From: Psychroserpens damuponensis
GTDB lineage: Bacteria; Bacteroidota; Bacteroidia; Flavobacteriales; Flavobacteriaceae
Assembly: GCF_000826655.1 (NCBI RefSeq)
Contig: NZ_JXJO01000001.1
Coordinates: 1-64,000, forward strand
Reading direction: 5' to 3'
DNA length: 64,000 nucleotides
In this document: in pieces, positions 9,226 to 64,000 of the stretch
Layout of the letters: each line of letters starts with the position of its first letter
Position numbering within the stretch: the first letter of the stretch is position 1
Notes under the pieces: model-generated
The model's input: the letters and a program-made list of their open reading frames with translations, nothing else
Told to the model about the DNA's origin: nothing
Databases searched by the model: none
Position numbers and translations under genes: made by a program

Positions 9226-9590
9226 AACATTTGGTTTAAATTAAAATTATCTTAACATTTATATAGACAATACACGTATTGCCGGCAAAACGCAAATACA
9301 AGATTTACGTGTAAGCTTAAACTTAAATATTGATGTACTATAAAATTTAGAACATCAACTAGAATGAAATCATTCTAAATCAATAAATGCTAATAATCAA
9401 TTGTTGTGCTATTAAACAATTTTTCGGGTAAGAATAATAGATTAATTTGCTATTAATTTAATCTATTATTAGGTTAAAAATAAAGAGTATTCACCTCAAC
9501 CTTAGGTCAAAAATATATTATAAAATACTGTCGTCCAAATAAATTTAACCTTTTTTTAGGTATTAAACCGTTGAACATTTTTTTCTGCAT
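9226..9590. promoter_or_regulatory. 365-bp upstream region of the giant gene with three palindromes
   Basis: No gene is seen here. It is the leader region of the giant minus-strand gene and lies downstream of hutH. Three inverted repeats stand out: TTGCCGGCAA at 9279-9288; AGAATGA-AA-TCATTCT at 9361-9376; and a 13-bp perfect stem with arms 9433-9445 (AATAATAGATTAA) and 9458-9470 around a 12-nt loop. None is followed by a good T-run, so they look more like regulator sites or mRNA leader hairpins than terminators. No convincing -7 box was found for the giant gene. Confidence 0.5.
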
Positions 9591-11102
9591 TTAATCGAAA
9601 AGCAAGTCGTTTTCGATGTAAAAATCACCGATGAAATACTGTGTTTTCATCATGAGTTTATAAAAAACTTTATCTTCAGAAACAAACTCAACTTCAGACC
9701 TATAACTTTTTAGAAACGAATTTATTAGAGGTGAAGACGGTATTGGTTTTCTAAAAAAAAGAGCTTGAGACGCATTTAAAAGCTCTATAGCCAAAATACG
9801 CTCTACATTATTAACTAAACTATAACATTGTGTTGCTGCATTAGCTCCCATACTTACGTGATCTTCTTGGCCATTACTTGACACAATACTATCTACACTG
9901 GCAGGTGTTGCAAGTTGCTTGTTTGCACTCACTATACTTGCTGCTGTATATTGCGGAATCATAAAACCTGAGTTTAATCCTGGGTTATCGACCAAAAACG
10001 CAGGAAGCCCTCTTAATCCTGAGATTAACTGATAGGTTCTTCGCTCTGATATACTCCCTAACTCTGCTACAGCAATTTTTAAATAATCTAAAGCTAACGC
10101 TAGGGGCTGCCCATGGAAATTTCCACCAGAAATAACTTCATCATCACCAACGAAAATATTAGGATTATCGGTAACCGAATTTATTTCAGTTTTAAATGTT
10201 TTATGCACAAAATCCAACGTATCTTTTGTTGCTCCGTGTACTTGAGGCATACATCTAAATGAGTAAGGGTCTTGCACGTGAGCTTTTTCTTGCGCTATCA
10301 ACTCACTACCTTCAAGAAATTCCCTTATTCGTTGTGCGGTTTTCAATTGACCTTTATGTGGTCTCACTAGATGCACTAATTCATTAAACGGCTCTATTCT
10401 TCCATCAAAAGCGTCTAAAGAAATACTCCCAATTAAATCGGCGAAATAAGACAGCTTATATGATTTTAATAGTAAATGTACGCCATAGGCACTCATAAAT
10501 TGTGTTCCGTTTAATAAAGCTAGCCCTTCTTTAGATTGCAACTCTATAGGATCCCAATTAAATTTTGATAAAATGTCATGAGACTTAAAAACTTCGTCAT
10601 TATATTCTACTTCACCTTCTGCTATAAGTGGCAAAGCTAAATGTGCCAAAGGTGCTAAATCTCCAGATGCTCCTAATGAACCTTGAGTAAATACAATTGG
10701 AAATATATCATTATTATAAAAATCTACAAGTCGTTGAACTGTTTTAAGTTGCACACCACTATGACCATAACTTAATGATTGTACTTTAAGTAGCAACATA
10801 AGCTTAACTATGGCTGTAGGCACGCGTTCTCCTACTCCACAGGCATGTGACATGACCAAGTTTTCTTGTAACTTGGTGAGCATATCATTAGAAACCTTCA
10901 CATCACACAATGACCCAAAACCTGTATTAATTCCGTAAATAGGTTGGTTTTCTTTTTTTATTTTCTCATCTAAATAATGACGACAATCTTCAATTTTCTT
11001 GATTGACTCTTTTGATAGTTCTATTTTTTTATTCTGAAAAAGGACATCTCCAATAGTTGAAAGTTCTAAAGTTTCCGAAGAGATAATATGCGTTGTACTC
11101 AT
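9591..11102 (-). CDS. hutH: Histidine ammonia-lyase
   Basis: The 503-residue product matches the usual length of HutH, which deaminates L-histidine to trans-urocanate in the cytoplasm as the first step of histidine breakdown. The ASG tripeptide that cyclises to the MIO electrophile is at residues 145-147 in GSLGASGDLAPLAHL. YGINTGFG at 56-63 is the other family hallmark. The next steps (hutU, hutI, hutG) are not adjacent, so the gene stands alone here. It is transcribed divergently from the TlpA-like lipoprotein gene at 11231. Related MIO enzymes such as tyrosine or phenylalanine ammonia-lyase share the motif, but overall sequence and length favour HutH. Confidence 0.93.
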   Translation of the reverse strand: MSTTHIISSETLELSTIGDVLFQNKKIELSKESIKKIEDCRHYLDEKIKKENQPIYGINTGFGSLCDVKVSNDMLTKLQENLVMSHACGVGERVPTAIVKLMLLLKVQSLSYGHSGVQLKTVQRLVDFYNNDIFPIVFTQGSLGASGDLAPLAHLALPLIAEGEVEYNDEVFKSHDILSKFNWDPIELQSKEGLALLNGTQFMSAYGVHLLLKSYKLSYFADLIGSISLDAFDGRIEPFNELVHLVRPHKGQLKTAQRIREFLEGSELIAQEKAHVQDPYSFRCMPQVHGATKDTLDFVHKTFKTEINSVTDNPNIFVGDDEVISGGNFHGQPLALALDYLKIAVAELGSISERRTYQLISGLRGLPAFLVDNPGLNSGFMIPQYTAASIVSANKQLATPASVDSIVSSNGQEDHVSMGANAATQCYSLVNNVERILAIELLNASQALFFRKPIPSSPLINSFLKSYRSEVEFVSEDKVFYKLMMKTQYFIGDFYIENDLLFD

Positions 11103-11199
11103 AGTTATATTTTATCTGTTCAAAATTCTGAATAACATTTAGACTATGCAACAAATGTTAATAATTAATAAAATATGTATGTGAAAAATGGATAATCTG

Positions 11200-11207
11200 T
11201 ATTTTTG
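11200..11207 (+). promoter_or_regulatory. Bacteroidota -7 box (TATTTTTG) for the TlpA-like gene
   Basis: TATTTTTG fits the TAnnTTTG -7 consensus and lies 24 bp before the ATG at 11231. No clear TTTG -33 element is visible at the usual spacing, so the call rests on the -7 box alone. Confidence 0.5.
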
Positions 11208-11230
11208 CTTAACTAAAACTATTATATAAT

Positions 11231-14581: not shown

Positions 14582-17029
14582 ATGAATGTTTTAAAATTTG
14601 GCGGAACATCTGTAGGCTCTGCAAAAAACATAAATAAAGTCATATCAATACTCGAAAATTATTCTAAAAAAAATCGAGTGATTTGCGTCGTTTCTGCTGT
14701 TGGAGGAATTACAGATAAACTTTTAAAATGTGCAGAATTAGCTCAAGAAAAAAACCAAGATTATATTTCAGAATTTGAAGCTATTTCAAAAAAGCATCAT
14801 GACATTATTCAAGAGCTAATTCCGAAGGAAAACAAACAAATCTCAACGCATGTCTCTCATAAACTTCAAGAGCTAAAAAACTTGTTAGACGGCATCTATT
14901 TAATCAATGAATTATCACCAAAAACATCAGATAAATTAGTCAGTTTTGGTGAACTTCTATCATCGTTCATGATTGCTGAGACCATGAAAAGTAGAGGTTT
15001 GGATTGCACACGAAAAAATAGCCAAGACTTGATTGTCACTAACTCTAATTTCACCAAGGCAGAAGTTCAATATCAACAAACTAATACGACGATCACAAGT
15101 TACTTTAAAGAAGCAACACAGCAAATCACCATTTTACCAGGCTTTATTTCTAAATCTGCACAAGGAGAAGTAACAACCTTAGGTCGAGGCGGTTCCGATT
15201 TTACTGCAGCCATTGTTGCAGCTGCCTTACAAGTTGATTCTTTAGAAATATGGACAGATGTTAGTGGGATGTTTACTACCAACCCTAAATTAGTAAAGCA
15301 AGCTTTTCCTATTAAAAATATATCTTACCAAGAAGCAATGGAGCTTTCTCATTTTGGAGCTAAAGTTTTATATCCTCCAACGGTTCAACCTGTATTAGAT
15401 TTAAAAATTCCAATACACATAAAGAACACACTAGATCCTGAAGCTTTTGGCACCAAAATATCAAGTGAATTTATAGAAAACACAGCTCGACCTGTAAGAG
15501 GAATTTCTAATATTAATACTGTTGCTTTGTTAACACTTCAAGGTAATGGTATGGTTGGCATTCCTGGTTTTTCTAAACGATTATTTGAAACTTTAGCAAA
15601 TGAGAAAATCAATATTATTTTTATTACTCAAGCCTCATCAGAACATTCTATTTGCTTTGGTATAGATGAAAAAGATGCTCAACTCGCTAAAATTACTATA
15701 GATACTAGTTTTGAGAATGAAATTTCGTTACATAAAATAGACCCTATAATTATTGAGACTGGCCTATCAATCATAGCATTAGTAGGTGATAGAATGAAAA
15801 GTCACCAAGGCATTAGTGGCAAAATGTTTAGTACCCTCGGCAAAAACAACATTAACATTAGAGCGATTGCTCAAGGTGCTTCAGAACGTAACATATCTGC
15901 CGTTATCGCAGAAAGGGATGTAAAAAAAGCTCTAAACACGTTACACGAATGTTTCTTTGAAGATAAAAACAAACAACTTAATATTTTTATTACAGGTGTT
16001 GGTAATGTTGGTGCACATTTGGTTAAACAAATTAGACAACAAAAAAAGTACCTCAAAGAACAGTTAAAACTGAATATAAAAGTTGTTGGCTTATCAAATT
16101 CTAGAACTATGATTTTTAATCCTAATGGATTAGATTTAAAAGATTGGAAATCACAATTGCAACACGGTGAAAAAGCAACTTTACAAGGTTTTCTAGAACA
16201 CGCAAAACATTTAAATTTACGCAATAGTATTTTTGTTGATGTCACGGCAAATGAAGCTGTTTCTCAATTATATGGAGAGTATTTAAAACATAGCATTGCT
16301 GTTGTAGCTTGTAATAAAATCGCATGTTCTAGTCAATTCGAAAACTACAATCAACTCAAAGAATTATCTCTTAAATATAATGCTCCATTTTTGTTTGAAA
16401 CCAATGTTGGTGCAGGATTACCAGTTATAGACACACTTAATAACTTAGTCGCTTCTGGAGACAAAATCACATCAATACAAGCCGTTTTATCTGGTAGTTT
16501 AAATTTTGTGTTCAATAATTTTAATGATACAACTAAGTTTCATGATGTTGTTAAGCAAGCGCAAATAGAAGGCTATACAGAACCAGATCCAAGAATTGAT
16601 TTAAGTGGTGTTGATGTCGCAAGAAAAATTCTAATTTTAGCTAGAGAGAGTGGCACAGAAATGAACCTTGAGGACATAACCAACGATTCTTTTTTAACAA
16701 AAACCAATCTAGAGAGTGACACCGTTGATGATTTTTACAACACCTTAATTGATGAAGAATCCCATTTTCAAAAATTATTTGCATCAGCCAAAGCTAATAA
16801 TTGTCAGTTAAAATATGTCGCACAATTTAATGAAGGCAAAGCCAAAGTTGGTTTAAAAGAAATCCCTCAAGGGCATCCTTTTTACAACCTAGAAGGCAAA
16901 GATAATATCGTCATGTTTTACACGCAACGTTATCCAGAGCAGCCCATGATTATAAAAGGAGCTGGAGCTGGAGCAGAGGTCACTGCTTCAGGCTTATTCG
17001 CAGACATCATTAGAGCAAGTAACAAGTAA
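14582..17029 (+). CDS. thrA: Bifunctional aspartate kinase / homoserine dehydrogenase I
   Basis: The 815-residue fusion carries out the first and third steps from aspartate to threonine, methionine, isoleucine and lysine. The kinase half shows KFGGTS at 5-10 and GRGGSDFT at 201-208. Paired ACT regulatory domains span roughly 312-455. The dehydrogenase half starts with the NAD(P)-binding GVGNVG at 472-477 and includes VACNKIA and NVGAGLPVIDTL. Length and order match E. coli ThrA. It opens a thrA-thrB-thrC operon and follows a Thr/Ile/Met-rich leader ORF, so control by end-product supply is plausible in addition to ACT-domain feedback. Confidence 0.96.
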   Translation: MNVLKFGGTSVGSAKNINKVISILENYSKKNRVICVVSAVGGITDKLLKCAELAQEKNQDYISEFEAISKKHHDIIQELIPKENKQISTHVSHKLQELKNLLDGIYLINELSPKTSDKLVSFGELLSSFMIAETMKSRGLDCTRKNSQDLIVTNSNFTKAEVQYQQTNTTITSYFKEATQQITILPGFISKSAQGEVTTLGRGGSDFTAAIVAAALQVDSLEIWTDVSGMFTTNPKLVKQAFPIKNISYQEAMELSHFGAKVLYPPTVQPVLDLKIPIHIKNTLDPEAFGTKISSEFIENTARPVRGISNINTVALLTLQGNGMVGIPGFSKRLFETLANEKINIIFITQASSEHSICFGIDEKDAQLAKITIDTSFENEISLHKIDPIIIETGLSIIALVGDRMKSHQGISGKMFSTLGKNNINIRAIAQGASERNISAVIAERDVKKALNTLHECFFEDKNKQLNIFITGVGNVGAHLVKQIRQQKKYLKEQLKLNIKVVGLSNSRTMIFNPNGLDLKDWKSQLQHGEKATLQGFLEHAKHLNLRNSIFVDVTANEAVSQLYGEYLKHSIAVVACNKIACSSQFENYNQLKELSLKYNAPFLFETNVGAGLPVIDTLNNLVASGDKITSIQAVLSGSLNFVFNNFNDTTKFHDVVKQAQIEGYTEPDPRIDLSGVDVARKILILARESGTEMNLEDITNDSFLTKTNLESDTVDDFYNTLIDEESHFQKLFASAKANNCQLKYVAQFNEGKAKVGLKEIPQGHPFYNLEGKDNIVMFYTQRYPEQPMIIKGAGAGAEVTASGLFADIIRASNK

Positions 17030-17136
17030 TACATTTAAAAACAACAGTCTAATTTAGATAAACAAAATTAATAGATAACTAGTTTTTCTTCGGAAAAATA
17101 GAAACTAAAATATTTCGCATTTGCGGAACAGAAGAT

Positions 17137-18069
17137 ATGAACGAAATCAAAATTTTCTCACCAGCAACCGTTGCCAATGTTTCTTGCGGTTTTGACGTGT
17201 TAGGTTTTTGCTTAGATACTATTGGAGACGATATGGTGATTAGAAAAACTAATAAAAAAGGCATTCATATCACTAAAATTGAAGGCTACGATTTACCCTT
17301 TGAGGCCAAAAAAAACGTCGCTGGTGTTTCTGCCTTAGCTATGCTAGAGGATGCAAAACCAGATTTTGGTTTTGAAATTGAAATTTATAAAAACATAAAA
17401 CCTGGAAGTGGTGTTGGCAGCAGCTCTGCAAGTGCAGTTGGTAGTGTGTTTGGGATGAACGAGCTATTAGGTAGACCTTACAATAAAACACAACTCACCA
17501 ATTTTGCCATGAAAGGTGAAGCTTTGGCCAGTCAATGTGAGCATGCAGATAATATTGCTCCTGCTATTTTTGGTGGCTTTACACTAGTAAAATCTGTTGC
17601 ACCATTAGATATTTTACAACTACCAACGCCTAATGATTTATTTGCAGTGATTATACATCCTCAAATTGAAATAAAAACATCGGATGCTAGAGCCATCCTT
17701 CCGAAGAAAATAGATTTAAAAGATGCCATCACGCAATGGTCAAATGTTGGCAGTTTAGTACACGCACTGCACACAAATGATTATAAATTGTTGAGTAATT
17801 CATTAACAGATGTGGTCGTTGAGCCCTTTCGTAGTCAGTTGATTCCTTATTTTGAAGATGTTAAAAAATCAGCACTTGACCATGGTGCTTTGGGCTGCGG
17901 AATTTCAGGATCTGGACCTTCCATTTTTAGTTTATGCTACGGAAATGATACGACTCAAAAAGTAGCTAAAGCCATTAAAAATATATATGCCGAAACAGGG
18001 ATTTCTTATGAGATTTATGTTTCGAAGATTAATACAGAAGGGATTAAAATACTGAATACTCACCAATAG
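17137..18069 (+). CDS. thrB: Homoserine kinase
   Basis: A 310-residue GHMP-family kinase that phosphorylates homoserine with ATP. The GHMP ATP-binding motif PGSGVGSSSASA is at 89-100. The C-terminal glycine-rich GCGISGSGPSIFSLC fits motif 3. The start ATG (MNEIKIFSPATVANVSCGFD) gives the standard N-terminus. It lies 107 bp after thrA and 66 bp before thrC in one operon and supplies O-phosphohomoserine to ThrC. Confidence 0.96.
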   Translation: MNEIKIFSPATVANVSCGFDVLGFCLDTIGDDMVIRKTNKKGIHITKIEGYDLPFEAKKNVAGVSALAMLEDAKPDFGFEIEIYKNIKPGSGVGSSSASAVGSVFGMNELLGRPYNKTQLTNFAMKGEALASQCEHADNIAPAIFGGFTLVKSVAPLDILQLPTPNDLFAVIIHPQIEIKTSDARAILPKKIDLKDAITQWSNVGSLVHALHTNDYKLLSNSLTDVVVEPFRSQLIPYFEDVKKSALDHGALGCGISGSGPSIFSLCYGNDTTQKVAKAIKNIYAETGISYEIYVSKINTEGIKILNTHQ

Positions 18070-18135: not shown

Positions 18136-19434
18136 ATGGAATATTATAGTTTAAACAGAAAAGCACCAAAAACAAATTTCGAAAATGCAGTTATTAAAGG
18201 GCTTGCACCAGATAAAGGATTATATTTTCCTGAAGAAATAACACCTTTACCTGCGTCTTTTTTTGAAGATATTGACAACAAATCTTACCCTGAGATTGCA
18301 TTTGAAGCGATTAAACAATTTGTGAGTCCTGAAATTTCCGAAGACACTTTAAAAACAATAGTAGAAGAAACGCTATCGTTTGATTTTCCTGTGGTACAAT
18401 TAGATGATAGCATTTCAACGCTAGAGTTATTTCATGGCCCAACGATGGCTTTTAAAGATGTTGGTGCACGTTTTATGGCAAGATGCTTGGGTCACTTTAA
18501 TAAAAACAACACGAAAGAAGTTACAGTTTTGGTAGCTACCTCAGGAGATACTGGAGGTGCTGTTGCTAACGGATTTTTAGGTGTAAAAGGTGTAAAGGTT
18601 GTGATTTTATATCCTTCGGGTAAAGTGAGTGATATACAAGAGAAACAGCTCACAACACTTGGTCAAAATATCACAGCATTAGAGGTAGATGGTGTGTTTG
18701 ACGACTGCCAAGACATGGTGAAACAAGCATTTTTAGACGAGACGATTACTAGTAAAATACAATTAACCTCAGCCAATTCTATCAATGTAGCTCGTTGGTT
18801 ACCGCAATTATTCTATTTTATGTTTGCCTATAAGCAACTACATAAAAAGCATGATGAGATTGTGTTTTCTATTCCTAGTGGTAACTTCGGAAATATCTGC
18901 GCAGGAATGGTAGCGCAACAATTAGGATTACCAATCAAACATTTTATTGCGTCTAATAATGCCAATAATGTGGTCACAGAATATTTACAAACAGCACAAT
19001 ACAACCCAAAACCATCTGTAGCAACTATTAGTAATGCCATGGATGTTGGAAACCCAAGTAACTTTGTGCGCATTCAAGAAATATATAATAACGATTTTAA
19101 ACGTTTACAAGCCAATTTATCATCATTTAGTTATACCGATGAGCAAACAAAAGCAGCACTACTAGAAATCTACAAAACTTATAATTACGTTGCAGATCCT
19201 CATGGAGCAGTTGGTTATTTAGGCTGTAAAGCGTATTTAAAAACGAACCCAAATGCGCATTGTGTTTTTCTTGAAACGGCACACCCAACCAAGTTTTTAG
19301 ATGTTGTAGAAAATGTTATTAAAACAAAAGTAGAGTTACCTTCTCAAATAGAAGCGGTTATGGATAAAGAGAAAGTGGCCTTACAGATTTCTGATTATAA
19401 CGGATTAAAAGGGTTTTTGCTAAATACAATTTAA
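18136..19434 (+). CDS. thrC: Threonine synthase
   Basis: A 432-residue PLP-dependent enzyme converting O-phosphohomoserine to threonine. The PLP lysine is Lys107 in FHGPTMAFKDVGARF, and the phosphate-binding loop TSGDTGGAV starts at 135. Size and N-terminal YYSLNRKAP fit the bacterial thrC group. It is the last gene of the thr operon. No strong terminator is visible between it and the small lipoprotein at 19476, so some read-through is possible. Confidence 0.95.
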   Translation: MEYYSLNRKAPKTNFENAVIKGLAPDKGLYFPEEITPLPASFFEDIDNKSYPEIAFEAIKQFVSPEISEDTLKTIVEETLSFDFPVVQLDDSISTLELFHGPTMAFKDVGARFMARCLGHFNKNNTKEVTVLVATSGDTGGAVANGFLGVKGVKVVILYPSGKVSDIQEKQLTTLGQNITALEVDGVFDDCQDMVKQAFLDETITSKIQLTSANSINVARWLPQLFYFMFAYKQLHKKHDEIVFSIPSGNFGNICAGMVAQQLGLPIKHFIASNNANNVVTEYLQTAQYNPKPSVATISNAMDVGNPSNFVRIQEIYNNDFKRLQANLSSFSYTDEQTKAALLEIYKTYNYVADPHGAVGYLGCKAYLKTNPNAHCVFLETAHPTKFLDVVENVIKTKVELPSQIEAVMDKEKVALQISDYNGLKGFLLNTI

Positions 19435-21763: not shown

Positions 21764-22276
21764 ATGAAAGATTTAAAAAATTACCCGAAATCCTTTTCAC
21801 ATATCGGCCTTACAGTACCAGATATAAAGCAAGCTGTAAAATTTTACTCAGAAGTTATGGGTTGGTACGTGATTATGGAACCGTCAACTGTAAAAAAAGA
21901 AACTCAAACTGCCATAGGTCAAATGTGTATAGATGTCTTCGGAAATGATTGGACAACCTTTGAAATTGCGCATTTAGCAACATCAGATGGCATAGGTGTT
22001 GAGTTATTTACATTTCCGCAGGGCAAAAAAGAAGCACCCGAATTTAACCCATTTAATACAGGTCTTTTTCATTTTTGCGTGCAAGACCCAAATATTGAAG
22101 AACTTATAGATAAAATTGTGGCTTATGGAGGCAAACAACGCATGCCTATTAGAGCATATTACCCTGAGTACAAGCCCTTTAAAATGTGCTACGTAGAAGA
22201 TCCTTTTGGGATTATTTTTGAAATCTATACACATAGCTATGAGTTAACATATTCATCTGGTGCGTATTCAAAATAA
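21764..22276 (+). CDS. VOC (glyoxalase/dioxygenase superfamily) protein
   Basis: 170 residues from the ATG at 21764 (MKDLKNYPKSFSHIGLTVPD). An in-frame TTG at 21743 is rejected because it lies inside the -7 promoter box. Two beta-alpha-beta-beta-beta modules are visible, with HIGLTV, GVELFTF, FHFCV and EDPFGIIFEIY giving the usual metal-ligand positions (His, Glu, His, Glu). The substrate is unknown; members include glyoxalase I, antibiotic-resistance proteins and ring-cleaving dioxygenases. Control by the divergent HxlR regulator suggests a role against electrophiles, aldehydes or quinones (inference). Confidence 0.85.
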   Translation: MKDLKNYPKSFSHIGLTVPDIKQAVKFYSEVMGWYVIMEPSTVKKETQTAIGQMCIDVFGNDWTTFEIAHLATSDGIGVELFTFPQGKKEAPEFNPFNTGLFHFCVQDPNIEELIDKIVAYGGKQRMPIRAYYPEYKPFKMCYVEDPFGIIFEIYTHSYELTYSSGAYSK

Positions 22277-24900: not shown

Positions 24901-24930
24901 CATTTCCGAAGAAAATAAATCTAATTTAAA

Positions 24931-26592: not shown

Positions 26593-26624
26593 TTCTCAAA
26601 TAAATAGTCGAACTTCGTTTTACT
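26593..26624. repeat. 32-bp repeated spacer block, copy 2
   Basis: Thirty of 32 bp match the block at 19930-19961. It sits in the spacer before the GNAT gene and is followed by a TTCGGAAA motif. Confidence 0.7.
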
Positions 26625-26676
26625 TCGGAAAGAGATAAGTTAATTATTATATATCAAGTACTTATAAAAAACCTCA

Positions 26677-48902: not shown

Positions 48903-50735
48903 TTAAAATTTAAGTATTAAATTGATTGTAAAATTTCTATTTTGCATTGGTCGCAATGCTACGTTTTCGTAATAAGTATTATAAATATTATTTATTCTGA
49001 AATCGGCCTCATAAGTCAAATCTCCTGTTGTATTAAACGTATAAGCTACACCTAGATTCCCAACATCAAAACCGTCAAGTGTATTACCTATAATTTCAAC
49101 TTCACCATTATATAAATGTTGATAAAAAGCAGTAAAAGACTTATAATTATAAGCTAAAGACACATTTGCTTTGTGTAAAGGCACATAAAACAAACGTTGA
49201 TTTTTTTCTACATCTTCGGTCTCTGTATATGAGTAGGCACTTACAAAATTAAATGTATGTTTATTGAATGTTTTTTGGATGCCGAACTCTGCTTCTAATC
49301 CATAGTGTTTGGCATTAGCTACGTTTACAGGATTCCAGTATCCTGTAGCACTATTTGGTCGCCATTGAATCAAATCTGATGTTTTGATATAATAAGTGTT
49401 CAGTTTTAAAGTCGCTTTCTTATAATTAAACTCATGACCTAAATCTACTTGATAGGATTCTTCTGGGTTTAAATCTAAATTACCTCCAGGATTCCAATAC
49501 AAATCATTGAATGTTGGCACTCTAAAGTTTTTAGAAGCATTCAACTTTATCGCATACCATTCTAAAACTTGATAATTTACATCACCAGCAAACACTAAAG
49601 GGCTATCAAAATCTGATATTACATCTTGGCGTACATTTAAATTGTATTGTAATTTTTTACTTGGTCTATGATTTAGAATAGCTGTTGCAGAAAAAGCGTT
49701 ACGTTTGGGCTCGTTAAAGCTATTACCAATTGCTGTGATGTGATTAAAATCTGTAATTACATTTAGACTGAGTCGTTTAGAAAATTGTTGTTTGTAACTA
49801 TGCTTAATTAAAAAGGTATTGGTTTTACCTTCAGAAAAATTATCTAATGATTTATTTTCAAAGTATTTAAATCGTTCTTGTAAATGACCTGCTTTTAAAG
49901 ATGATGTAAATTGATTACCTATGTGCGTCCAATCTATCATACTACGATAGTCTTGGGTTTCATATTTACTATTTGAAGGTGCTAACAGTGTTGATGAGAA
50001 CTCACGATCACCTCTAAAGTTTTGATGATATATTTTTAAAACGTCCTTTTTAGAAAGTATATATCCTAAATTAAAATTGAGATCTAAATTATTAAATGCG
50101 CCATTTTCATTTTTACGATCTGTACCTAAAAACTTGTAATCATTTTTAGAATTCACATAAGCCGCACCAATATTTGCTGACCATGTTCCATTTCCGAAGG
50201 AAGCATTGTAATTTATATTTTGCGTATCAAAACTACCATAGGCAAGTTGGACACGGTTATCAAAATGGTGGTTAAAATCTAAATCGTTAGACAAATGAAT
50301 TGTACCACCAATAGCACCACTACCGTATTGCACGCTTCCGCCTCCACTTCTAATGCTAATATTATCGTAATTTGATGTTGATAGGGCATTAAAATCTACT
50401 TGGCCGTTGAGTTGAGAGTTTATATTAATTCCATTCCAAATCACAGCAGTTTGAGAGGCATTTGTTCCTCTAAAAGATGGCGATGACACCATGCCATAAC
50501 CGTTTTCTTTAAAATATATGTTAGAATTAAAACGCAAAACATCTGTTAATGACGTTTTATTTTTTCTCAAAAGTGAATCACTCAATACAGTTAGCTTATA
50601 ACCTTTAGCGTATTGTTTCAATTTAACATCACTCAATACCACCTCGTCCAACTTTTGAATAGAATCTAAAGTTGTTTGTGCCCAAGTTAAACTGCCAAAA
50701 AGCAGCAATAAAAAAAATAGTGTTATCTGTCTCAT
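48903..50735 (-). CDS. btuB: TonB-dependent outer-membrane receptor, vitamin B12 (BtuB-like)
   Basis: 610 residues: signal peptide ending LTWAQ, a TonB box-like DEVVLSD at 30-36, a plug domain (about 45-150) with SPSFRGTNASQTAVIWNGI and YGSGAIGGTIHL, then a 22-strand barrel ending in an aromatic-rich terminus (FTINLILKF). The size is close to E. coli BtuB and far smaller than SusC proteins. The cobalamin riboswitch directly upstream and BtuF/C/D-like genes opposite make B12 or another corrinoid the likely ligand. Confidence 0.88.
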   Translation of the reverse strand: MRQITLFFLLLLFGSLTWAQTTLDSIQKLDEVVLSDVKLKQYAKGYKLTVLSDSLLRKNKTSLTDVLRFNSNIYFKENGYGMVSSPSFRGTNASQTAVIWNGININSQLNGQVDFNALSTSNYDNISIRSGGGSVQYGSGAIGGTIHLSNDLDFNHHFDNRVQLAYGSFDTQNINYNASFGNGTWSANIGAAYVNSKNDYKFLGTDRKNENGAFNNLDLNFNLGYILSKKDVLKIYHQNFRGDREFSSTLLAPSNSKYETQDYRSMIDWTHIGNQFTSSLKAGHLQERFKYFENKSLDNFSEGKTNTFLIKHSYKQQFSKRLSLNVITDFNHITAIGNSFNEPKRNAFSATAILNHRPSKKLQYNLNVRQDVISDFDSPLVFAGDVNYQVLEWYAIKLNASKNFRVPTFNDLYWNPGGNLDLNPEESYQVDLGHEFNYKKATLKLNTYYIKTSDLIQWRPNSATGYWNPVNVANAKHYGLEAEFGIQKTFNKHTFNFVSAYSYTETEDVEKNQRLFYVPLHKANVSLAYNYKSFTAFYQHLYNGEVEIIGNTLDGFDVGNLGVAYTFNTTGDLTYEADFRINNIYNTYYENVALRPMQNRNFTINLILKF

Positions 50736-51325: not shown

Positions 51326-52486
51326 ATGAAATACTTTAAATTTTTCCTCATTCTTTTACTCATAAGTTCATGTAAAAATGAGACAAAACAAGACCTAATT
51401 ACAACTCCTACAGCGCAACAACAAGAGTTAAAATATGCAGAAGGTTTTGTAGTTACAAATGCTAAAAACTATAAACTACTAACCATTAAAAGTCCTTGGC
51501 CTAAGAGTGAAAAAGTTTTTAAATATGTATTAATTTCTGCGGAAGAAGCTGCTAAAACAACATTTTTGAAAGATGACTACGATGGCATTATCATAACACC
51601 TGTTCAAAAAATTGTAGCAACCTCAACTACTCATATTCCTGCATTAGAACTTTTAGAAGTTGAAAAAACGTTAATAGGTTTTCCTGGAACAGATTATGTG
51701 TCTTCGGAAAAAACTAGAACTAGAATAGATAACGAAAGTATTAGAGAGCTGGGCAAAAACGAAGGCATCAATACCGAAGTTTTATTAGAATTACGTCCAG
51801 ATGTGGTGGTTGCTTTTGGAGTTGATGGCACCAATAAAAGTATGGAAACGGTTGAGCGTGCAGGAATTCCTGTAATCTATAATGGTGATTGGGTTGAAAA
51901 ATCACCACTAGCTAAAGCCGAATGGATTAAATTTTTTGGTGTACTCTATAACAAAGAAAAAGAAGCCAATTCTATTTTTAATCAAATTGAAAACGATTAT
52001 CTAGAAGCTAAAAAAATAGCATCAAAATCTACAACACAACCAACAGTGTTATGTGGTGCGATGTATAAAGATGTATGGTATTTACCAAATGGCACAAGTG
52101 CAGAAGCACAATTTTTAAATGATGCCAATGCTAATTATCTTTGGAGTGACACCAAAGAAACAGGAAGTATTGCCTTGAGTTTTGAAGCTGTTTTTGACAA
52201 AGCTCAAACGACCGATTTATGGTTGAGTCCCTCGTATTATTCAAGTTATGAGGCTTTAGAAAAATCTAATGTGCATTATAAAGAGTTTAGCGCTTTTAAA
52301 GACAAGAACATTTATACGTTTTCTAATACCACAGGTAAAACTGGAGGCGTTACCTATTATGAATTAGGTATGGCTAGACCAGATTTAGTACTTAAGGATA
52401 TGATAAAAATCTGTCATCCTGAGTTATTACAAGATTATGAAACAACGTTTTTTAAGCCTTTATTGTTAACTGATACAACAGATTAA
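51326..52486 (+). CDS. btuF: ABC transporter substrate-binding lipoprotein (BtuF-like)
   Basis: 386 residues from ATG 51326 (MKYFKFFLILLLISSC, lipid Cys16); an ATG three codons upstream is possible. Class III (PeriplBP_2) fold: ALELLEVEKTLIGFPG, ELGKNEGINTEVLLELRPDVVVAFG, and a long interdomain helix LAKAEWIKFFGVLYNKEKEAN. Fe-siderophore binders share this fold, but the divergent cobalamin riboswitch and btuB/btuG-like genes point to B12. First gene of the btuF-btuC-btuD run. Confidence 0.85.
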   Translation: MKYFKFFLILLLISSCKNETKQDLITTPTAQQQELKYAEGFVVTNAKNYKLLTIKSPWPKSEKVFKYVLISAEEAAKTTFLKDDYDGIIITPVQKIVATSTTHIPALELLEVEKTLIGFPGTDYVSSEKTRTRIDNESIRELGKNEGINTEVLLELRPDVVVAFGVDGTNKSMETVERAGIPVIYNGDWVEKSPLAKAEWIKFFGVLYNKEKEANSIFNQIENDYLEAKKIASKSTTQPTVLCGAMYKDVWYLPNGTSAEAQFLNDANANYLWSDTKETGSIALSFEAVFDKAQTTDLWLSPSYYSSYEALEKSNVHYKEFSAFKDKNIYTFSNTTGKTGGVTYYELGMARPDLVLKDMIKICHPELLQDYETTFFKPLLLTDTTD

Positions 52487-52586: not shown

Positions 52587-53633
52587 AATGAGAACTACAG
52601 TAAAAAAGTGATTAAAACTAAACACACATATTCATTTATAATTTTAACAATGCTCTTATTGCTCTGCTTTGTTGTGAATATTAGTTTAGGCTCTGTGAGT
52701 ATCCCTTTTTCCGAAGTTATTCAAAGTATTTTAGGAAATTCAAGCAATGACTCTTGGCAATATATCATTCAAGATTATAGATTACCAAAAGCATTTACTG
52801 CTATTTTGGTTGGTTCTGGTTTAGGTATTTCGGGATTGTTGATGCAAACCTTATTTAGAAATCCGTTGGCTGGACCTTTTGTTTTAGGCATTAGCTCTGG
52901 TGCCAGTTTAGGTGTTGCATTAGTCATTTTAGGTTCTGGATTATTTGGAGGTATTTTTGCGAGTGTACTTATTTCAAAATGGAGTATCGTAATTGCTGCT
53001 AGTTTAGGGAGTTTTCTCGTATTATTAGCTGTTTTACTTGTCTCCTCAAAAGTGAGAGATACGATGGCGATTTTAATTATTGGACTCATGTTTGGCAGTA
53101 TTACAGCAGCCATTGTGAGTGTACTCTCCTATTTTAGCTCTGCGGAACAATTGCAACAATACATATTTTGGGGCTTTGGAAGTTTAGGTAACCTATCGTG
53201 GAATGAATTGTTTATTTTCTTCGGAATTTATATCATCGGAATCCTTTTAGCCATCTTTTCTATAAAATCACTAAATACCTTCTTATTAGGTGAAAATTAC
53301 GCCAAAAGTTTAGGTCTAGATGTAAAAACGAGCCGATTTATCATCATTATTGCCACAAGTTTATTAGCAGGAACTATAACCGCTTTTGCTGGACCTATTG
53401 CTTTTATTGGCTTGGCCATACCACATATGACGCGACAAATTTTTAATACCTCAAATCATCAAATACTGTTACCAGCTGTATTTCTATTTGGAGCTGTCGT
53501 TATGCTTATTTGTGATAGTATTGCACAATTACCAACAAGTGATTATACCTTACCCATTAATGCAATTACCTCTTTAATTGGTGCTCCTGTAGTAGTTTGG
53601 TTATTGGTACGACAACGTAAAATGGTGTTTTAA
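52581..53633 (+). CDS. btuC: FecCD/BtuC-family ABC permease
   Basis: 350 residues (or 341 from GTG 52608) with about ten membrane segments. Family motifs: DYRLPKAFTAILVGSGLGISGLLMQTLFRNPLAGPFVLGISSGASLG and GPIAFIGLAIPHMTRQIF (the loop that couples to the ATPase). It moves the substrate across the inner membrane. The ATG at 52581 is formed by the last bases of a hairpin repeat (AAATGACAAATGAG). GTG 52608 (VIKTKHTYSF) begins nearer the first membrane helix, so the start is uncertain. Confidence 0.87.
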   Translation: MTNENYSKKVIKTKHTYSFIILTMLLLLCFVVNISLGSVSIPFSEVIQSILGNSSNDSWQYIIQDYRLPKAFTAILVGSGLGISGLLMQTLFRNPLAGPFVLGISSGASLGVALVILGSGLFGGIFASVLISKWSIVIAASLGSFLVLLAVLLVSSKVRDTMAILIIGLMFGSITAAIVSVLSYFSSAEQLQQYIFWGFGSLGNLSWNELFIFFGIYIIGILLAIFSIKSLNTFLLGENYAKSLGLDVKTSRFIIIIATSLLAGTITAFAGPIAFIGLAIPHMTRQIFNTSNHQILLPAVFLFGAVVMLICDSIAQLPTSDYTLPINAITSLIGAPVVVWLLVRQRKMVF

Positions 53634-54428
53634 ATGACAAAAAGTAGCCAACATACCATCCTAAAAACATCAAATCTTACCATTGGTTATCAAACCAAAA
53701 AAGGAAAATCTATCATTGCAGACGACATCCATCTTGAACTCAAACAAGGAGAACTTATAGGTTTGGTTGGTGCCAATGGCATTGGTAAATCTACGCTTTT
53801 AAGAACTTTGGCAACTATACAACAACCTTTAGATGGTGCTATTAAAATACATGATACTACTCTAGATCAATATTCGGCTTTAGATTTAGCAAAAACCATG
53901 AGTTTGGTTTTAACAGAGCAACTCATGAGTAAAAATCTTTCGGTTTTTGAATTGGTCGCATTAGGTCGTCAGCCTTATACTAATTGGGTAGGCAATTTAT
54001 CTAAGTTAGATGTTTCCGAAGTAAATAAAGCCATAGAGCTTACAAATATTACCAACTTAAAACATCGCAAATGTTTTGAATTGAGTGATGGCCAACTTCA
54101 AAAAGTGATGATTGCTCGTGCCTTAGCTCAAGATACACATTTGATTATTTTAGATGAACCTACGACGCATCTAGATATGTATCACAAAGCATATATTTTG
54201 AAATTGCTACAACGATTAGCGAAGGAAACCAATAAAACCATTCTATTTTCTTCTCATGAGATTGATTTGGCCATTCAATTGTGTGATACAATGATTGTGA
54301 TGACCAAGGAAACCGTTGTATCAAATTCGCCATGCAGATTGATTGAGCAAGGTGTTTTTGAAACGCTATTCCCAAAAGATTTAATTGGCTTTGATAAGAC
54401 TACTGGAAGTTTTAGGGTGAAGAAATAA
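53634..54428 (+). CDS. btuD: ABC transporter ATPase (BtuD/FecE-like)
   Basis: 264 residues; starts directly after the permease stop. Walker A GANGIGKST at 46-54, signature LSDGQ at 150-154 (serine-to-aspartate variation of LSGGQ), Walker B LIILDEP at 170-176 and the H-loop SSHEIDLA. It energises B12 import with the permease. The location gives the substrate; the sequence alone would also fit ferric-siderophore ATPases. Confidence 0.88.
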   Translation: MTKSSQHTILKTSNLTIGYQTKKGKSIIADDIHLELKQGELIGLVGANGIGKSTLLRTLATIQQPLDGAIKIHDTTLDQYSALDLAKTMSLVLTEQLMSKNLSVFELVALGRQPYTNWVGNLSKLDVSEVNKAIELTNITNLKHRKCFELSDGQLQKVMIARALAQDTHLIILDEPTTHLDMYHKAYILKLLQRLAKETNKTILFSSHEIDLAIQLCDTMIVMTKETVVSNSPCRLIEQGVFETLFPKDLIGFDKTTGSFRVKK

Positions 54429-56521: not shown

Positions 56522-56620
56522 AATTTTGTTACCAATTGGTATTGATGTAGACATTAGCTTTGAGTTTTAATATTTCCGAAGTACAAATTATTACTTTTTA
56601 AGTACCTGTATTAAAAATAT

Positions 56621-58580: not shown

Positions 58581-61433
58581 TTATTTGCTCAAATACATTT
58601 TACGTCTTGAGTATAAATTATAGAACTCATCATCTTTTAAGCTATCAATAAATAAAATACTTTCACCTGTACTTTTCATTTCTGGACCAAGTTGTTTATT
58701 TACATTAGGGAATTTATTAAACGAAAATACTGGTTGTTTAATAGCAAAACCTTCTAACTTAGGATTAAAATCAAAATCGGTTACTTTCTTATCTCCCAAC
58801 ATTACTTTAGTTGCATAATTCACATAAGGTTCTCCATAAGCTTTGGCTATAAATGGTACAGTACGCGAAGCTCTAGGATTTGCTTCAATAATGTAAACCA
58901 TATCATCTTTTATAGCAAATTGAATATTAATAAGACCTACAGTTTTTAGTGCTAATGCAATTTTTTTAGTGTGATCTTTAATTTGTTGCATCACAAATTC
59001 CCCTAAATTAAAAGGAGGTAAAGTTGCATTACTATCTCCAGAGTGAATACCACAAGGCTCAATATGTTCCATAATACCTATGATGTACACATTTTCGCCA
59101 TCACAAATAGCATCTGCTTCGGCTTCTATAGCGCCATCGAGGTAATGATCTAAAAGCAATTGATTACCTGGCATTCGCCTTAATAAATCAACAACATGCT
59201 CTTCTAGTTCTTGTTTATTTATAACAATTTTCATCCCTTGACCACCAAGAACGTATGAAGGTCTAACTAAAATTGGGAAATCTAAAACATCTGCAATTGC
59301 TGCTGCTTCATCTGCTGTAGTAGCAATATCAAATTGCGGATAAGGGATATTATTTTCTTTCAATAAGTTTGAAAAAAGTCCTCTATCTTCAGCTAAATCT
59401 AAAGATTGATATGTAGTTCCTATAATTTTAATACCGTAACGATCTAGCTTTTCGGCTAATTTCAAAGCAGTTTGACCTCCTAATTGAACAATAACACCTT
59501 CAGGTTTTTCATGACGAATTATATCATAAATATGTTCCCAGAATACAGGCTCAAAGTATAGTTTGTCTGCAATATCGAAATCTGTTGATACCGTTTCTGG
59601 ATTACAATTAATCATAATGGTTTCGTAGCCACATTCTGCAGCTGCCAAAACACCATGAACACAACAGTAATCAAATTCTATACCTTGACCAATTCTATTT
59701 GGACCAGAACCAAGAACGATAATTTTCTTTTTATCAGTTACAACACTTTCATTGGCTGGAAATATTTTTCCTTCGGAAGTTTCTACTTCATTTTCAAATG
59801 TAGAATAGTAATATGGAGTTTGAGCTTTAAATTCCGCAGCACATGTATCTACTAATTTATATACACGATTAATTTTAAATTCGTCTCTTTTGTTATACAC
59901 TTGACTTTCTAAACAATTAAGCATATGCGCAATTTGTCTATCTCCATAACCTTTTTGCTTTGCTTCTAATAATAAGTCACGCTCAATGGTATCAATTGTA
60001 AATGTTGAAATTTCTTTTTGAAGCTCATGTAGTTCTTCATATTGTTTTAAGAACCACATATCAATTTTTGTAATCTCATGAATTCTGCTTAATGGAATTC
60101 CCATTTGTATAGCATCATAAATTGCAAATACACGATCCCAACTTGCATAGGTTAGCTTATCAATAATTTGTTGATAATCCTTATATCCTTTACCATCTGC
60201 ACCTAAACCATTACGTTTAATTTCGAGAGATTGTGTGGCTTTATGTAATGCTTCTTGAAATGAACGACCTATGGCCATAACTTCACCAACGGCTTTCATT
60301 TGCAATCCTAATGTTCTATCTGAACCTTCAAATTTATCGAAATTCCAACGTGGTATTTTTACAACTACATAATCTAAAGTAGGCTCAAATAATGCTGAAG
60401 TTGATCCTGTAATTTGGTTATTTAATTCATCTAAAGTGTAACCTATAGCTAATTTTGCTGCTATTTTTGCAATTGGGTAACCTGTTGCTTTACTTGCCAA
60501 TGCTGAAGATCTAGACACTCGAGGATTGATCTCAATTGCAATAATTTCTTCTTTTTCATCAGGACTAACAGCAAATTGCACATTACAACCACCTGCAAAA
60601 TCACCTATGCTTCGCATCATATGAATGGCCATATCACGCATTTTTTGGAATGTTTTGTCTGATAATGTCATTGCAGGAGCCACAGTAATTGAGTCTCCAG
60701 TATGAATTCCCATAGGATCCATATTTTCAATTGTACATATAATGACCACATTATCATTAGAATCTCTTAATAATTCTAATTCGTATTCTTTCCAGCCAAT
60801 TAAGGCTTTATCAATCATAACTTCATGAATTGGAGACACCTCTAATCCACGTGTTAATAATTCATCAAAATCTTCTTCTTTATAAACAATTGCAGCTCCA
60901 TCACCACCCAGAGTAAACGATGCTCTAATGACCAATGGAAAGCCAAATTCTTGAGCAATTTCTTTTCCTTTTAAGTAAGATGTTGCAGTTGCTTGAGGTG
61001 CCATGCCAACACCAATTTTAAGCATTAGCTCTCTAAACTTCTCTCTATCTTCGGTAATATTAATAGCGTCAATATCTACACCTATAATATCTACATTGAA
61101 ATCTTTCCAAATCCCTTTTTCATCTGCCTCAATACAAAGATTTAATGCTGTTTGTCCACCCATTGTAGGTAAAACAGCATCAATATGAGGATGATCTTTT
61201 AAAATTTTAATGATAGATTTTGTAGTTAATGGCAACAGGTACACATGATCTGCCATTGTTGGGTCTGTCATGATCGTTGCTGGATTAGAATTGATAAGTA
61301 TGGTTTCAATCCCATCTTCGCGGAGTGAACGAAGCGCTTGTGTTCCTGAGTAGTCAAATTCACAGGCTTGACCAATAACTATTGGTCCTGAGCCAATGAT
61401 AAGTATCGATTTTAATTTGTTGTTCTTAGGCAT
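58581..61433 (-). CDS. carB: Carbamoyl-phosphate synthase large subunit, short form
   Basis: 950 residues with two ATP-grasp halves, each opening with a GSGP-IGQG-type loop (IIGSGPIVIGQACEFDYSGTQA at the start, VLGSGPNRIGQGIEFDYCCVH in the middle). It makes carbamoyl phosphate for pyrimidines and arginine. It stops soon after GPEMKSTGESILF, so the C-terminal MGS-like regulatory domain of the 1,073-residue E. coli enzyme (UMP/ornithine site) is missing. carA is not adjacent in this window. It has its own -7 box behind the rpmH terminator. Confidence 0.95.
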   Translation of the reverse strand: MPKNNKLKSILIIGSGPIVIGQACEFDYSGTQALRSLREDGIETILINSNPATIMTDPTMADHVYLLPLTTKSIIKILKDHPHIDAVLPTMGGQTALNLCIEADEKGIWKDFNVDIIGVDIDAINITEDREKFRELMLKIGVGMAPQATATSYLKGKEIAQEFGFPLVIRASFTLGGDGAAIVYKEEDFDELLTRGLEVSPIHEVMIDKALIGWKEYELELLRDSNDNVVIICTIENMDPMGIHTGDSITVAPAMTLSDKTFQKMRDMAIHMMRSIGDFAGGCNVQFAVSPDEKEEIIAIEINPRVSRSSALASKATGYPIAKIAAKLAIGYTLDELNNQITGSTSALFEPTLDYVVVKIPRWNFDKFEGSDRTLGLQMKAVGEVMAIGRSFQEALHKATQSLEIKRNGLGADGKGYKDYQQIIDKLTYASWDRVFAIYDAIQMGIPLSRIHEITKIDMWFLKQYEELHELQKEISTFTIDTIERDLLLEAKQKGYGDRQIAHMLNCLESQVYNKRDEFKINRVYKLVDTCAAEFKAQTPYYYSTFENEVETSEGKIFPANESVVTDKKKIIVLGSGPNRIGQGIEFDYCCVHGVLAAAECGYETIMINCNPETVSTDFDIADKLYFEPVFWEHIYDIIRHEKPEGVIVQLGGQTALKLAEKLDRYGIKIIGTTYQSLDLAEDRGLFSNLLKENNIPYPQFDIATTADEAAAIADVLDFPILVRPSYVLGGQGMKIVINKQELEEHVVDLLRRMPGNQLLLDHYLDGAIEAEADAICDGENVYIIGIMEHIEPCGIHSGDSNATLPPFNLGEFVMQQIKDHTKKIALALKTVGLINIQFAIKDDMVYIIEANPRASRTVPFIAKAYGEPYVNYATKVMLGDKKVTDFDFNPKLEGFAIKQPVFSFNKFPNVNKQLGPEMKSTGESILFIDSLKDDEFYNLYSRRKMYLSK

Positions 61434-62789: not shown

Positions 62790-63339
62790 AAATATCAAAT
62801 TAGTCATAGCAGGATTAATAATAGCTTATGCTGTTTATGAATTTACAGAAGGCTATATAGGTAATGGTATTATGTACATTTTATTATCACTTATATTTAT
62901 TTTCTTATACTTTAAAAATGAATTTATTCTACTTGCTTTTTTAAAACTGAGAAAACAAGATTTTGAAGGTGCTAAAAATTGGTTAAATAAAATTAAGAAT
63001 CCTTCAAGTGCTTTAGTTAAAAAACAAGAAGGTTACTATAACTATCTTCACGGTGTTATGGTATCACAAACCAACATGAATGAAGCCGAAAAATACTTTA
63101 AAAAAGCTTTAAACTTGGGGCTTTCTATGGATCATGATGTTGCTATGGCTAAATTAAACTTAGCAGGAATTGCTTTTAGTAAACGAAGAGCAATTGAGGC
63201 TAAGCAGTTATTAAATGAAGCTCAAAAACTAGACAAACGAGGCATTTTAACAGATCAAATTAAAATGATGAAAGATGGAATGAAAAGATCTCAAGGTCCT
63301 AAGCAGCATTACGGAAATCGAAATATGGGAAGGCGTTAG
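62779..63339 (+). CDS. Membrane-anchored TPR-like protein
   Basis: 186 residues: two N-terminal membrane helices (about 6-22 and 28-46), then TPR-like helices (QDFEGAKNWLNKI, YYNYLHGVMVSQTNMNEAEKYFKKAL, KLNLAGIAFSKRRAIEAKQLLNEAQ) and a basic tail. It overlaps the DUF6263-like gene by 11 bp. Probably a scaffold protein at the inner membrane. Partner unknown. Confidence 0.75.
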   Translation: MFNKNIKLVIAGLIIAYAVYEFTEGYIGNGIMYILLSLIFIFLYFKNEFILLAFLKLRKQDFEGAKNWLNKIKNPSSALVKKQEGYYNYLHGVMVSQTNMNEAEKYFKKALNLGLSMDHDVAMAKLNLAGIAFSKRRAIEAKQLLNEAQKLDKRGILTDQIKMMKDGMKRSQGPKQHYGNRNMGRR

Positions 63340-63448
63340 TTCACTTTTAGCCATATTCCTTTTATCGGCTTATTCTTCAATTAGTGTCCATTTCTCTAAT
63401 ATTCATCACCTTTCAACGAGTTTTTACTCATACTACCACACTAAGGTC

Positions 63449-63456
63449 TACATTTG
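63449..63456 (+). promoter_or_regulatory. Bacteroidota -7 box (TACATTTG)
   Basis: Exact TAnnTTTG match, 28 bp before the ATG at 63485. Confidence 0.5.
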
Positions 63457-63484
63457 TAACCAGTTAAACAACAAATAATTAGAC

Positions 63485-64000
63485 ATGAAGGTATATGCAA
63501 CTATACTTTTGTTAGGTTGTATGTTTTTAGCGTTCCCTCAACAGCCAAAAACCTACTTTGATTCACAAATCGCCCGACATTTAAAAGCTTATAATGTGAA
63601 ATCTGAAATCGCTATGCTAAATGGTGATAAAGAGCAAGCTAAATTTCTGTTTGATTCTCTTTTTGAAAATCATTTGAAGGATAGTTATATTAGGGATATT
63701 TCTCTTAACAAAGTGAAAGGAGGCACTTTAAAAACAGCTTCAATTGACAATCCTTTTCTTCTAATCACCAAATCGTCTTGGGAAATAATTAAAGATGAGG
63801 AAATAGCTGAAATTAATAGAATGTCAAAGTTGTACAAAGGACAGCTTGAAATCATTATTTTATTTTGGGATTCTAAAGACAAAGCTAAACAACTATCTAA
63901 AAACTACAACTCGAACGTTACAGTTACGTATATAGATGAGCGCAAAAATAAGGCTAGCCATATTATCAAACCATTTAAACATTCATTTGGAGCACCTGCG
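63485..64000 (+). CDS. Exported protein with a possible thioredoxin-like fold (3' end beyond the window)
   Basis: 172 codons are visible and the frame is open at the right edge. An N-terminal signal (MKVYATILLLGCMFLAFPQQ) is present; the Cys at position 12 has no good lipobox. The middle region (IDNPFLLITKSSWEIIKDEE, then YKGQLEIIILFWDSKDKAKQL) resembles a TlpA-type thioredoxin fold. However, where the CxxC motif should be there is SSWEII, so redox activity is not expected in this part. Family assignment is weak because the gene is cut. Confidence 0.6.
   Translation, partial: MKVYATILLLGCMFLAFPQQPKTYFDSQIARHLKAYNVKSEIAMLNGDKEQAKFLFDSLFENHLKDSYIRDISLNKVKGGTLKTASIDNPFLLITKSSWEIIKDEEIAEINRMSKLYKGQLEIIILFWDSKDKAKQLSKNYNSNVTVTYIDERKNKASHIIKPFKHSFGAPA

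Follow-up and report, generated by a model that had tools for sequence, protein, structure and literature searches.

A short word scattered through the genome of Psychroserpens damuponensis as a candidate DNA uptake sequence of the Flavobacteriaceae

The window and its copies of the word

The stretch of DNA analysed here, termed the window, comprises the first 64,000 nucleotides of contig NZ_JXJO01000001.1 of Psychroserpens damuponensis (assembly GCF_000826655.1; 3.95 Mb in 106 contigs, 99.5% complete). Coordinates without a contig label are window positions, G### denotes genomes (the present one being G000) and L### denotes loci. The window starts with a giant repeat open reading frame (ORF) at 1-9225, with a strong GC skew of -0.24 to -0.25 over 1-8000, and otherwise holds ordinary metabolic genes plus a type IX secretion system (T9SS) sorting tail. 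The subject of this work is a word recurring on both strands, the 9-mer TTTCCGAAG (hereafter the word), together with its 8-mer TTCCGAAG. The 8-mer was found 32 times, with 17 plus-strand and 15 minus-strand copies, while 100 dinucleotide shuffles of the window gave a mean of 1.00 (standard deviation 1.03, largest value 5). Of these copies 24 extend to the 9-mer, for which 0.41 were expected. Using our own simple ORF caller, 23 copies were assigned to ORFs and 9 to intergenic DNA. An earlier note, made from the sequence alone, had spoken of about thirty copies where about one was expected, which even understated the case. It had also described most copies as reaching the 9-mer, an occurrence in genes and spacers, near-equal strand use, absence from the giant repeat gene and five example positions (24903, 36830, 43396, 45955, 56573), all of which were confirmed; only its range of 9,226-64,000 was slightly too wide, since the copies start between 11,073 and 59,771. 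The giant repeat ORF contains no TTCCGAAG and three TTCCGCAG; ranked by ratio within the window alone, words of this gene stand above TTCCGAAG.

The copies are given by the coordinates and strand of the 8-mer. Those extending to the 9-mer within ORFs lie at 11073..11080 (+) in a hutH-like ORF, 18336..18343 (+) and 18885..18892 (-) in a threonine synthase-like ORF, 21937..21944 (-) in ORF 21743-22276, 23556..23563 (+) in ORF 23242-23856, 24871..24878 (-) at the 3' end of an acr3-like ORF, 29963..29970 (-) in a Xaa-Pro aminopeptidase-like ORF, 34418..34425 (-) in ORF 33724-35781, 37502..37509 (-) in ORF 36948-37697, 39447..39454 (-) and 39529..39536 (+) in ORF 38779-40008, 43651..43658 (+) in ORF 43508-44086, 50192..50199 (+) in ORF 48903-50735, 51702..51709 (-) in ORF 51317-52486, 52709..52716 (+) in ORF 52581-53633 and 54014..54021 (+) in ORF 53634-54428. 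Intergenic 9-mers were found at 17088..17095 (-), 24904..24911 (+), 26623..26630 (-), 28014..28021 (+), 36830..36837 (-), 43396..43403 (-), 45955..45962 (-) and 56574..56581 (+). The remaining copies are 8-mers only, at 14820..14827 (+) in a thrA-like ORF, 17699..17706 (+) in a homoserine kinase-like ORF, 30302..30309 (+) in intergenic DNA, 32557..32564 (+) in ORF 32442-33275, 39034..39041 (+) in ORF 38779-40008, 40635..40642 (+) in ORF 40535-41113, 53219..53226 (-) in ORF 52581-53633 and 59771..59778 (-) in a carB-like ORF (58581-61433). The copies at 24,871 and 24,904, the second directly past the acr3-like ORF, form the two arms of an inverted pair for which a hairpin was predicted (-13.8 kcal/mol, z -2.1). 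Hairpin-forming inverted pairs have been discussed for known uptake sequences (PMC2346458).

Enrichment against base composition and codon usage

Throughout the genome the word was counted 573 times on one and 561 times on the other strand (1,134 in total), compared to 26 and 36 (62 in total) for the reversed word, which served as control. Markov and codon analyses were performed on 378,575 bases, namely the entire contig 1 and 160 kb of contig 2. With an order-3 Markov model, 104 copies of the 9-mer were observed versus 2.8 expected and 156 of the 8-mer versus 7.1, and the highest z-score among 7-, 8-, 9- and 10-mers always belonged to the word or to parts of it. At a Markov order of at least 5 the expectation for the 9-mer rose to 42 to 102; the parameters of such models, however, contain the word itself. 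TTCCGAAG also ranked first among the 8-mers in stretches of G333 (540 kb), G343 (140 kb), G327 (120 kb) and, in another genus, G076 (100 kb). Its density amounted to 0.41 per kb in G000 and 0.63 per kb in G333. All copies of the core TTCCGNAG numbered 210 and 508, corresponding to about 0.55 and 0.94 per kb; known uptake sequences reach approximately 1 copy per kb (PMC1626085).

The 8-mer copies fell into ORFs in 134 of 156 cases. In 100 synonymous codon shuffles within genes the coding copies averaged 6.8 and never exceeded 13. All six frame positions were above their own expectation; the two commonest frames encode Phe-Gly (45 copies) and Ser-Glu (38). The earlier note had named a third-order Markov background and Ser-Glu or Phe-Gly codon pairs as possible sources of the excess. 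The enrichment stood far above the former and was not explained by the latter.

Strand use, spacing and a word-free gene cluster

In G000 the density of the 8-mer was 0.72 per kb outside versus 0.385 per kb inside ORFs, and 0.56 versus 0.39 with a second ORF set, both sets coming from our simple caller. This equals a 1.4 to 1.9-fold enrichment outside ORFs, with 1.8-fold (1.03 versus 0.58 per kb) in G333. Spacing was near random (mean 2.1 kb, coefficient of variation 0.93 with a single 38-kb gap left out). Across 27 tiles (540 kb) of the complete, one-contig G333 chromosome, 171 and 169 copies were counted on the two strands, and heterogeneity between tiles was absent (chi-square 15.5, 27 degrees of freedom, p = 0.96; origin unmapped). 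Pooled over 23 genomes of the genus, 5,079 and 5,053 words were counted per strand. As the strand variation along G333 was no more than chance, a polar signal of the Chi type or of the type of FtsK-orienting polar sequences (KOPS), against which the earlier note had already argued from strand use, was rejected as unlikely. The checks of spacing, strand bias and codon position that it had proposed gave near-random spacing, no strand bias and enrichment in all six frames. Within ORFs, sense and antisense copies numbered 54 and 79 in G000 (p = 0.04), 126 and 152 in G333 (p = 0.13); in known uptake sequences one orientation is commoner in reading frames (PMC2346458).

The single gap spans 38,111 bases (contig 1 of G000, 161,738-199,849), is low in GC and has nearly all its genes on one strand. 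Scanning ten of its ORFs identified five glycosyltransferases above the cut-off, a sixth that fell short of it, two MBOAT acyltransferases, one asparagine-synthase-like protein and an ATP-grasp protein. Judged by these genes, the word-free gap is a surface polysaccharide cluster. Loci of this kind are often exchanged.

Anatomy of the motif

At the sixth base of the core TTCCGNAG, A is preferred, C and T occur at 9 to 12 times expectation and G, with few copies, at about 6 to 7 times (G000 and G333). The second base is mildly tolerant, with for example 24 copies of TGCCGAAG in G000 versus 4.4 expected. TTCTGAAG reached about twice expectation. Where the fourth base seems to vary from C to G, we take this for the complement of the CTTCCGAAG context. 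The word is not palindromic, its complement being CTTCGGAAA.

Counting the first T of the word as position 0, T was enriched at -1, -6, -14/-15 and near -32 to -36 and A at +8 to +16 and +19, in both G000 (155 sites) and G333 (339 sites). In G076 (26 sites) T was enriched at -1, -6/-7 and -17, and A at -4, -2, +10, +15 and +16. The control words, with only 10 to 54 sites each, were of limited value, because besides their few sites they had shared or scattered positions: the reversed word gave next to no enriched positions, TTCTGAAG had single positions in common with it (in G000 T at -1 and A at +15, in G333 T at -6 of the motif), and TTCAGAAG gave many scattered positions in G000 (21 sites).

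Conservation at the DNA level

Contig 1 of G000 was aligned to stretches of the congeners G333, G343 and G327, with 79-82% nucleotide identity. The aligned words were identical in 34 of 57 cases for G333, 29 of 54 for G343 and 17 of 42 for G327, compared to 15-17% for 8-mers of the same composition. At coding sites where both species have the same residues, the word was identical in DNA at 23 of 25 (G333), 19 of 25 (G343) and 11 of 19 sites (G327). The corresponding backgrounds were 28-32% for all 8-mers, 22-25% for 8-mers of the same composition, 29-42% over Ser-Glu or Phe-Gly windows in matching frames and, from few windows (14-18), 47-60% over Phe-Arg. The order of conservation follows word abundance (1,347 in G333, 864 in G343, 698 in G327). 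This comparison indicates that the word is selected or driven at the DNA level.

Alignment gaps fell within the word in 3 of 57 (G333), 0 of 54 (G343) and 2 of 42 cases (G327), close to the background of 3-4%, which ruled out the word as a small inserted element. Non-conserved word sites differed mainly by substitutions. The word arises by substitution, not insertion.

Occurrence among relatives

In the 23 genomes of the genus, including G000, copy numbers ranged 12-fold from 110 to 1,347 (the latter in G333) and broadly followed a ThrA plus ComEC tree. G000, G342, G333, G343 and G327 form a word-rich clade, G339, G331, G328, G336 and G330 a word-poor one; G339 is near the control level (117 versus 97). 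Within the family, 28 of 299 genomes, from 19 of 236 genera, had at least three times the control count (table read by eye, ratios calculated for 29 of its rows; G022, counted among the 28, holds only 29 copies). For named records or metagenome-assembled genomes (MAGs) this level was reached by 3 of 28. Counts were 364 versus 77 control copies in Christiangramia portivictoriae DSM 23547, 357 versus 94 in Algibacter miyuki CECT 8300 and 224 versus 60 in MAG NORP82. The Algibacter miyuki value is weak support, because the word was absent from the top 8-mers in 100 kb of its genome (16 copies). Among 193 members of the order outside the family none had more than 207 copies and, genomes with a handful of copies aside, only one family (f4) was mildly raised, with a best value of 122 versus 28. 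In the sampled genomes the word therefore belongs to the Flavobacteriaceae, with a patchy distribution.

No comparably spread word of another dialect was found in word-poor congeners (200 kb of G331, 100 kb of G328, 100 kb of G339); the nearest candidate was TTCTGAAG in G331 with 60 copies versus 18.5. Those loci of L001-L045 that reach 12 kb, which offer little DNA (12-23 kb per species), showed no second uptake word. In Myroides sp. NP-2 (L023:3989-4409) the scan met a tandem repeat of 7 bp, GCAACGA, which imitates an over-represented word; L031 has clustered repeats, and in L039 one word has 13 of its 14 copies on a single strand.

Competence genes and candidate readers

Riemerella anatipestifer requires ComEC, DprA, ComF and RecA for natural transformation, and in addition four proteins of unassigned role, two of which are a DUF5689 protein and its outer-membrane neighbour (PMC8459023). 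Mutation of tonBA inhibited its transformation and did not lower iron acquisition (PMC8383284). Some of the competence genes, which the earlier note had suggested looking for, were present: ComEC and a DUF5689 protein were each found in 23 of 23 genus genomes, and an adjacent receptor/DUF5689 gene pair was found in G000 and, at the same place, in G333 and G267. The receptor of the G000 pair has a carboxypeptidase-regulatory domain and a sub-threshold match to a TonB plug. Compared to G333, the pair (L245:7631-11873, contig 11 of G000) shows 60% identity for the receptor and 32% for the lipoprotein, while the three upstream genes reach 87-90% and a small downstream gene 71%. The G000 pair thus looks imported. 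No TTCCGAAG was found within L245:5780-12121 around it. An AlphaFold model of the DUF5689 lipoprotein was mediocre (mean pLDDT, the predicted local distance difference test, 70.7), and the 50 Foldseek matches listed were mainly beta-sandwich domains of the cleaved-adhesin and Eph-ligand-binding type, which say nothing on DNA binding.

Another DUF5689 protein, carrying a T9SS tail and a variable N-terminal half, was found in 8 of 23 congeners, having 425 to 1,347 words each (L237:9763-11514 on contig 16 of G000, and the orthologous L238-L244). G267 (513 words) and G338 (453) are without it, G338 having a 576-amino-acid match of 33% identity. An association with word density within the genus, noticed post hoc, had p = 0.0035 in a phylogenetic regression at lambda 1. 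Among 54 family genomes, similar secondary DUF5689 matches were by our reading not commoner in word-rich (6 of 27) than in word-poor ones (9 of 27).

Genes for a secretin and a PF00437 ATPase, of the kind found in type II secretion systems or type IV pili, lie on contig 19 of G000 (26142-29429). A secretin was detected in 10 of 23 congeners (G000 and nine others), patchily over the tree, and the secretin and ATPase genes showed no association with word density in the genus (p = 0.98). Neither a secretin (PF00263) nor a PF00437 ATPase passed the cut-off in G333, G343, G342, G332 and G327, where the ATPase gave weak matches only (E about 1e-4). Since G333 has the most words of the genus, a type IV pilin is unlikely to read the word, at least in this genome. 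The Riemerella-type system of TonB receptor and DUF5689 protein appears the likeliest route of DNA entry, and the reader of the word may be new.

Interpretation and alternative explanations

Taken together, TTTCCGAAG is probably a DNA uptake sequence (DUS) comparable to those of Pasteurellaceae and Neisseriaceae. The earlier note had proposed a DUS- or HIP1-type word; its first half is favoured, also as an uptake signal sequence (USS), and HIP1 is disfavoured because of the non-palindromic word, its T- and A-tracts, the rapid change between congeners, the word-free cluster and the competence genes. The uptake reading fits best because of neutral strand use, upkeep in all frames, phased flanks, the lack of words in an exchangeable cluster and the fast change between lineages. 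We infer from the sequences surface binding, preferential uptake and drive. A DNA receptor on the cell surface would bind free DNA with the word better than other DNA during natural transformation, and recombination of the fragments taken up would copy alleles with the word more often than alleles without it. The word would thereby accumulate on both strands of the chromosome, be kept at synonymous sites and decay in lineages where the uptake bias is lost.

Several observations weigh against this reading. Word-poor congeners also keep ComEC and the DUF5689 protein, and in hand-picked family genomes a DUF5689 match (E 1e-18 or better; this protein scored alone, without the neighbouring receptor) was found in 25 of the 27 word-rich and in 26 of the 27 word-poor ones, so that the presence of this protein does not explain which genomes own the word. 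The DUF5689 lipoprotein of G000 is closest, with 86% identity, to that of the distant, word-poor G331, and the allele is therefore not the sole determinant of specificity, unless the swap was recent. Flanking tracts were indistinct in G012 (22 sites) and Algibacter miyuki (16 sites). Copies were spread over flat quintiles within genes, without bias to the gene ends (G000 and G333), while the USS of Pasteurellaceae is biased towards gene termini (PMC2346458). Perfect copies of known uptake sequences exceed singly mismatched ones (PMC1626085). Here they were not clearly commoner: G000 has 156 perfect 8-mers and 270 copies of the 24 single-mismatch words versus 158.8 expected, an excess of 111, and G333 has 340 versus 531, with 267.5 expected and an excess of 263.5. 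DNA alignable to G333 held 0.61 words per kb and unaligned DNA 0.46, a mild difference only.

In the available text of PMC7811141, strong sequence preference in uptake is attributed to two families, Pasteurellaceae and Neisseriaceae, of which the flavobacterial word would be a convergent counterpart. The Pasteurellaceae USS is similar in its asymmetric core of approximately 9 bp, its hundreds to more than 1,000 copies, many of them coding and without orientation bias, its AT-rich flanks spaced at roughly one helical turn, its origin by substitution and its sharing among relatives (PMC1626085). It differs in phylum and in its cores, AAGTGCGGT for the Hin type and ACAAGCGGT for the Apl type (PMC1626085), which are unrelated to TTCCGNAG. 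Further differences are the T-rich positions 5' and the A-rich tract 3' of the present word, its lack of a gene-end bias and the lack of a secretin or pilus-type ATPase over the cut-off in G333. The Neisseriaceae DUS, GCCGTCTGAA, is bound by the receptor ComP (PMC1626085, PMC3868556). It resembles the present word as a dense short word on both strands with hairpin-capable inverted pairs, of which one (24,871/24,904) was found here; its sequence is unrelated, and the Neisseria DUS is described without flanking motifs (PMC1626085). A pilin as reader appears unlikely here, given that no secretin or PF00437 ATPase exceeded the cut-off in G333; pilins and ComP were not searched.

Closer in phylogeny is Riemerella anatipestifer, likewise a flavobacterium, whose RA0C_RS04915/04920 the receptor/DUF5689 pair of G000 resembles, ComEC being present as well (PMC8459023). 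Riemerella columbina prefers its own DNA; in the text available of that study, the table of putative words holds A/T-rich k-mers only, TTTCCGAAG is missing from it and no uptake sequence is established (PMC7965970). In the literature covered, with most subscription journals and bioRxiv preprints outside its scope, the text available held no report of the word or of an established uptake sequence in Bacteroidota, and searches for TTTCCGAAG and its complement as text strings returned unrelated titles among the matches listed.

We tentatively suggest, at somewhat less than even odds, that the word represents a third, independently evolved family of uptake sequences in Bacteroidota, read by a TonB-dependent receptor together with a DUF5689 surface protein and not by a type IV pilus. 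The receptor genes would be exchanged among species, and the word would wax and wane with the state of that system. If the word is DUS-like, convergence would have produced such words a third time, outside the two phyla's known families, in a different phylum and probably by other machinery. It would help to predict which flavobacteria swap DNA by transformation and would offer a ready-made tag for genetic tools in these bacteria. With 23 congeners and a 12-fold range of copy numbers, the debate of selection versus drive would become testable by comparison.

Among the alternatives, the binding site of a cytoplasmic protein that binds DNA genome-wide, be it a nucleoid-associated protein, an organiser of the chromosome or a global regulator, fares best and is still unlikely. 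The A/T tracts flanking the core would suit DNA bending, and near-random spacing along the chromosome and conservation of the word as DNA agree with it. However, 134 of 156 copies lie in ORFs, on either strand and in all frames, the polysaccharide cluster is free of words, and the 12-fold change between congeners with patchy high ratios (19 of 236 genera) is fast for an essential chromosome function.

A Chi-like site regulating a recombination nuclease of the RecBCD/AddAB type is very improbable. Length, frequency and over-representation of the word are in the range of Chi; however, Chi sites are unidirectional and skewed along the replichores. Such a skew was absent from the G333 tiles and from the 573/561 copies of G000. 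The near-control count of congeners such as G339 and the long flanks of the word also speak against it.

Just as improbable is the reading that the word is of the HIP1 type and maintained by a methylase, biased repair or biased mutation, or that it serves uptake by way of its methylation. HIP1 of cyanobacteria is likewise a highly iterated short word scattered through genes and spacers on both strands. It is, however, a palindromic octamer, unlike the asymmetric TTTCCGAAG, and long flanks with a tolerant sixth base suit a protein reading a long asymmetric site. A link to methylation has a precedent in Campylobacter jejuni, where uptake depends on methylated DNA (PMC8468864).

Finally, a by-product of codon usage, dipeptides or base composition, which the two leading frames might suggest, is ruled out by the synonymous shuffles and Markov models, with the higher density outside ORFs and the rarity of the reversed word pointing the same way.

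Further features of the window

The CarB protein of the window is 92% identical to records from Oceanihabitans, Lacinutrix and Bizionia and 91% to those from Winogradskyella and Algibacter. A SIR2-like protein encoded at 20024-21193, in a stretch at 20-25 kb without alignment to G333, shows weak similarity to the defence sirtuin Dsr1 (24.8 bits, far under the cut-off). On the minus strand, a cobalamin riboswitch (Rfam RF00174, 61.5 bits) was identified at 50765-51087, upstream of the outer-membrane receptor-like ORF 48903-50735.

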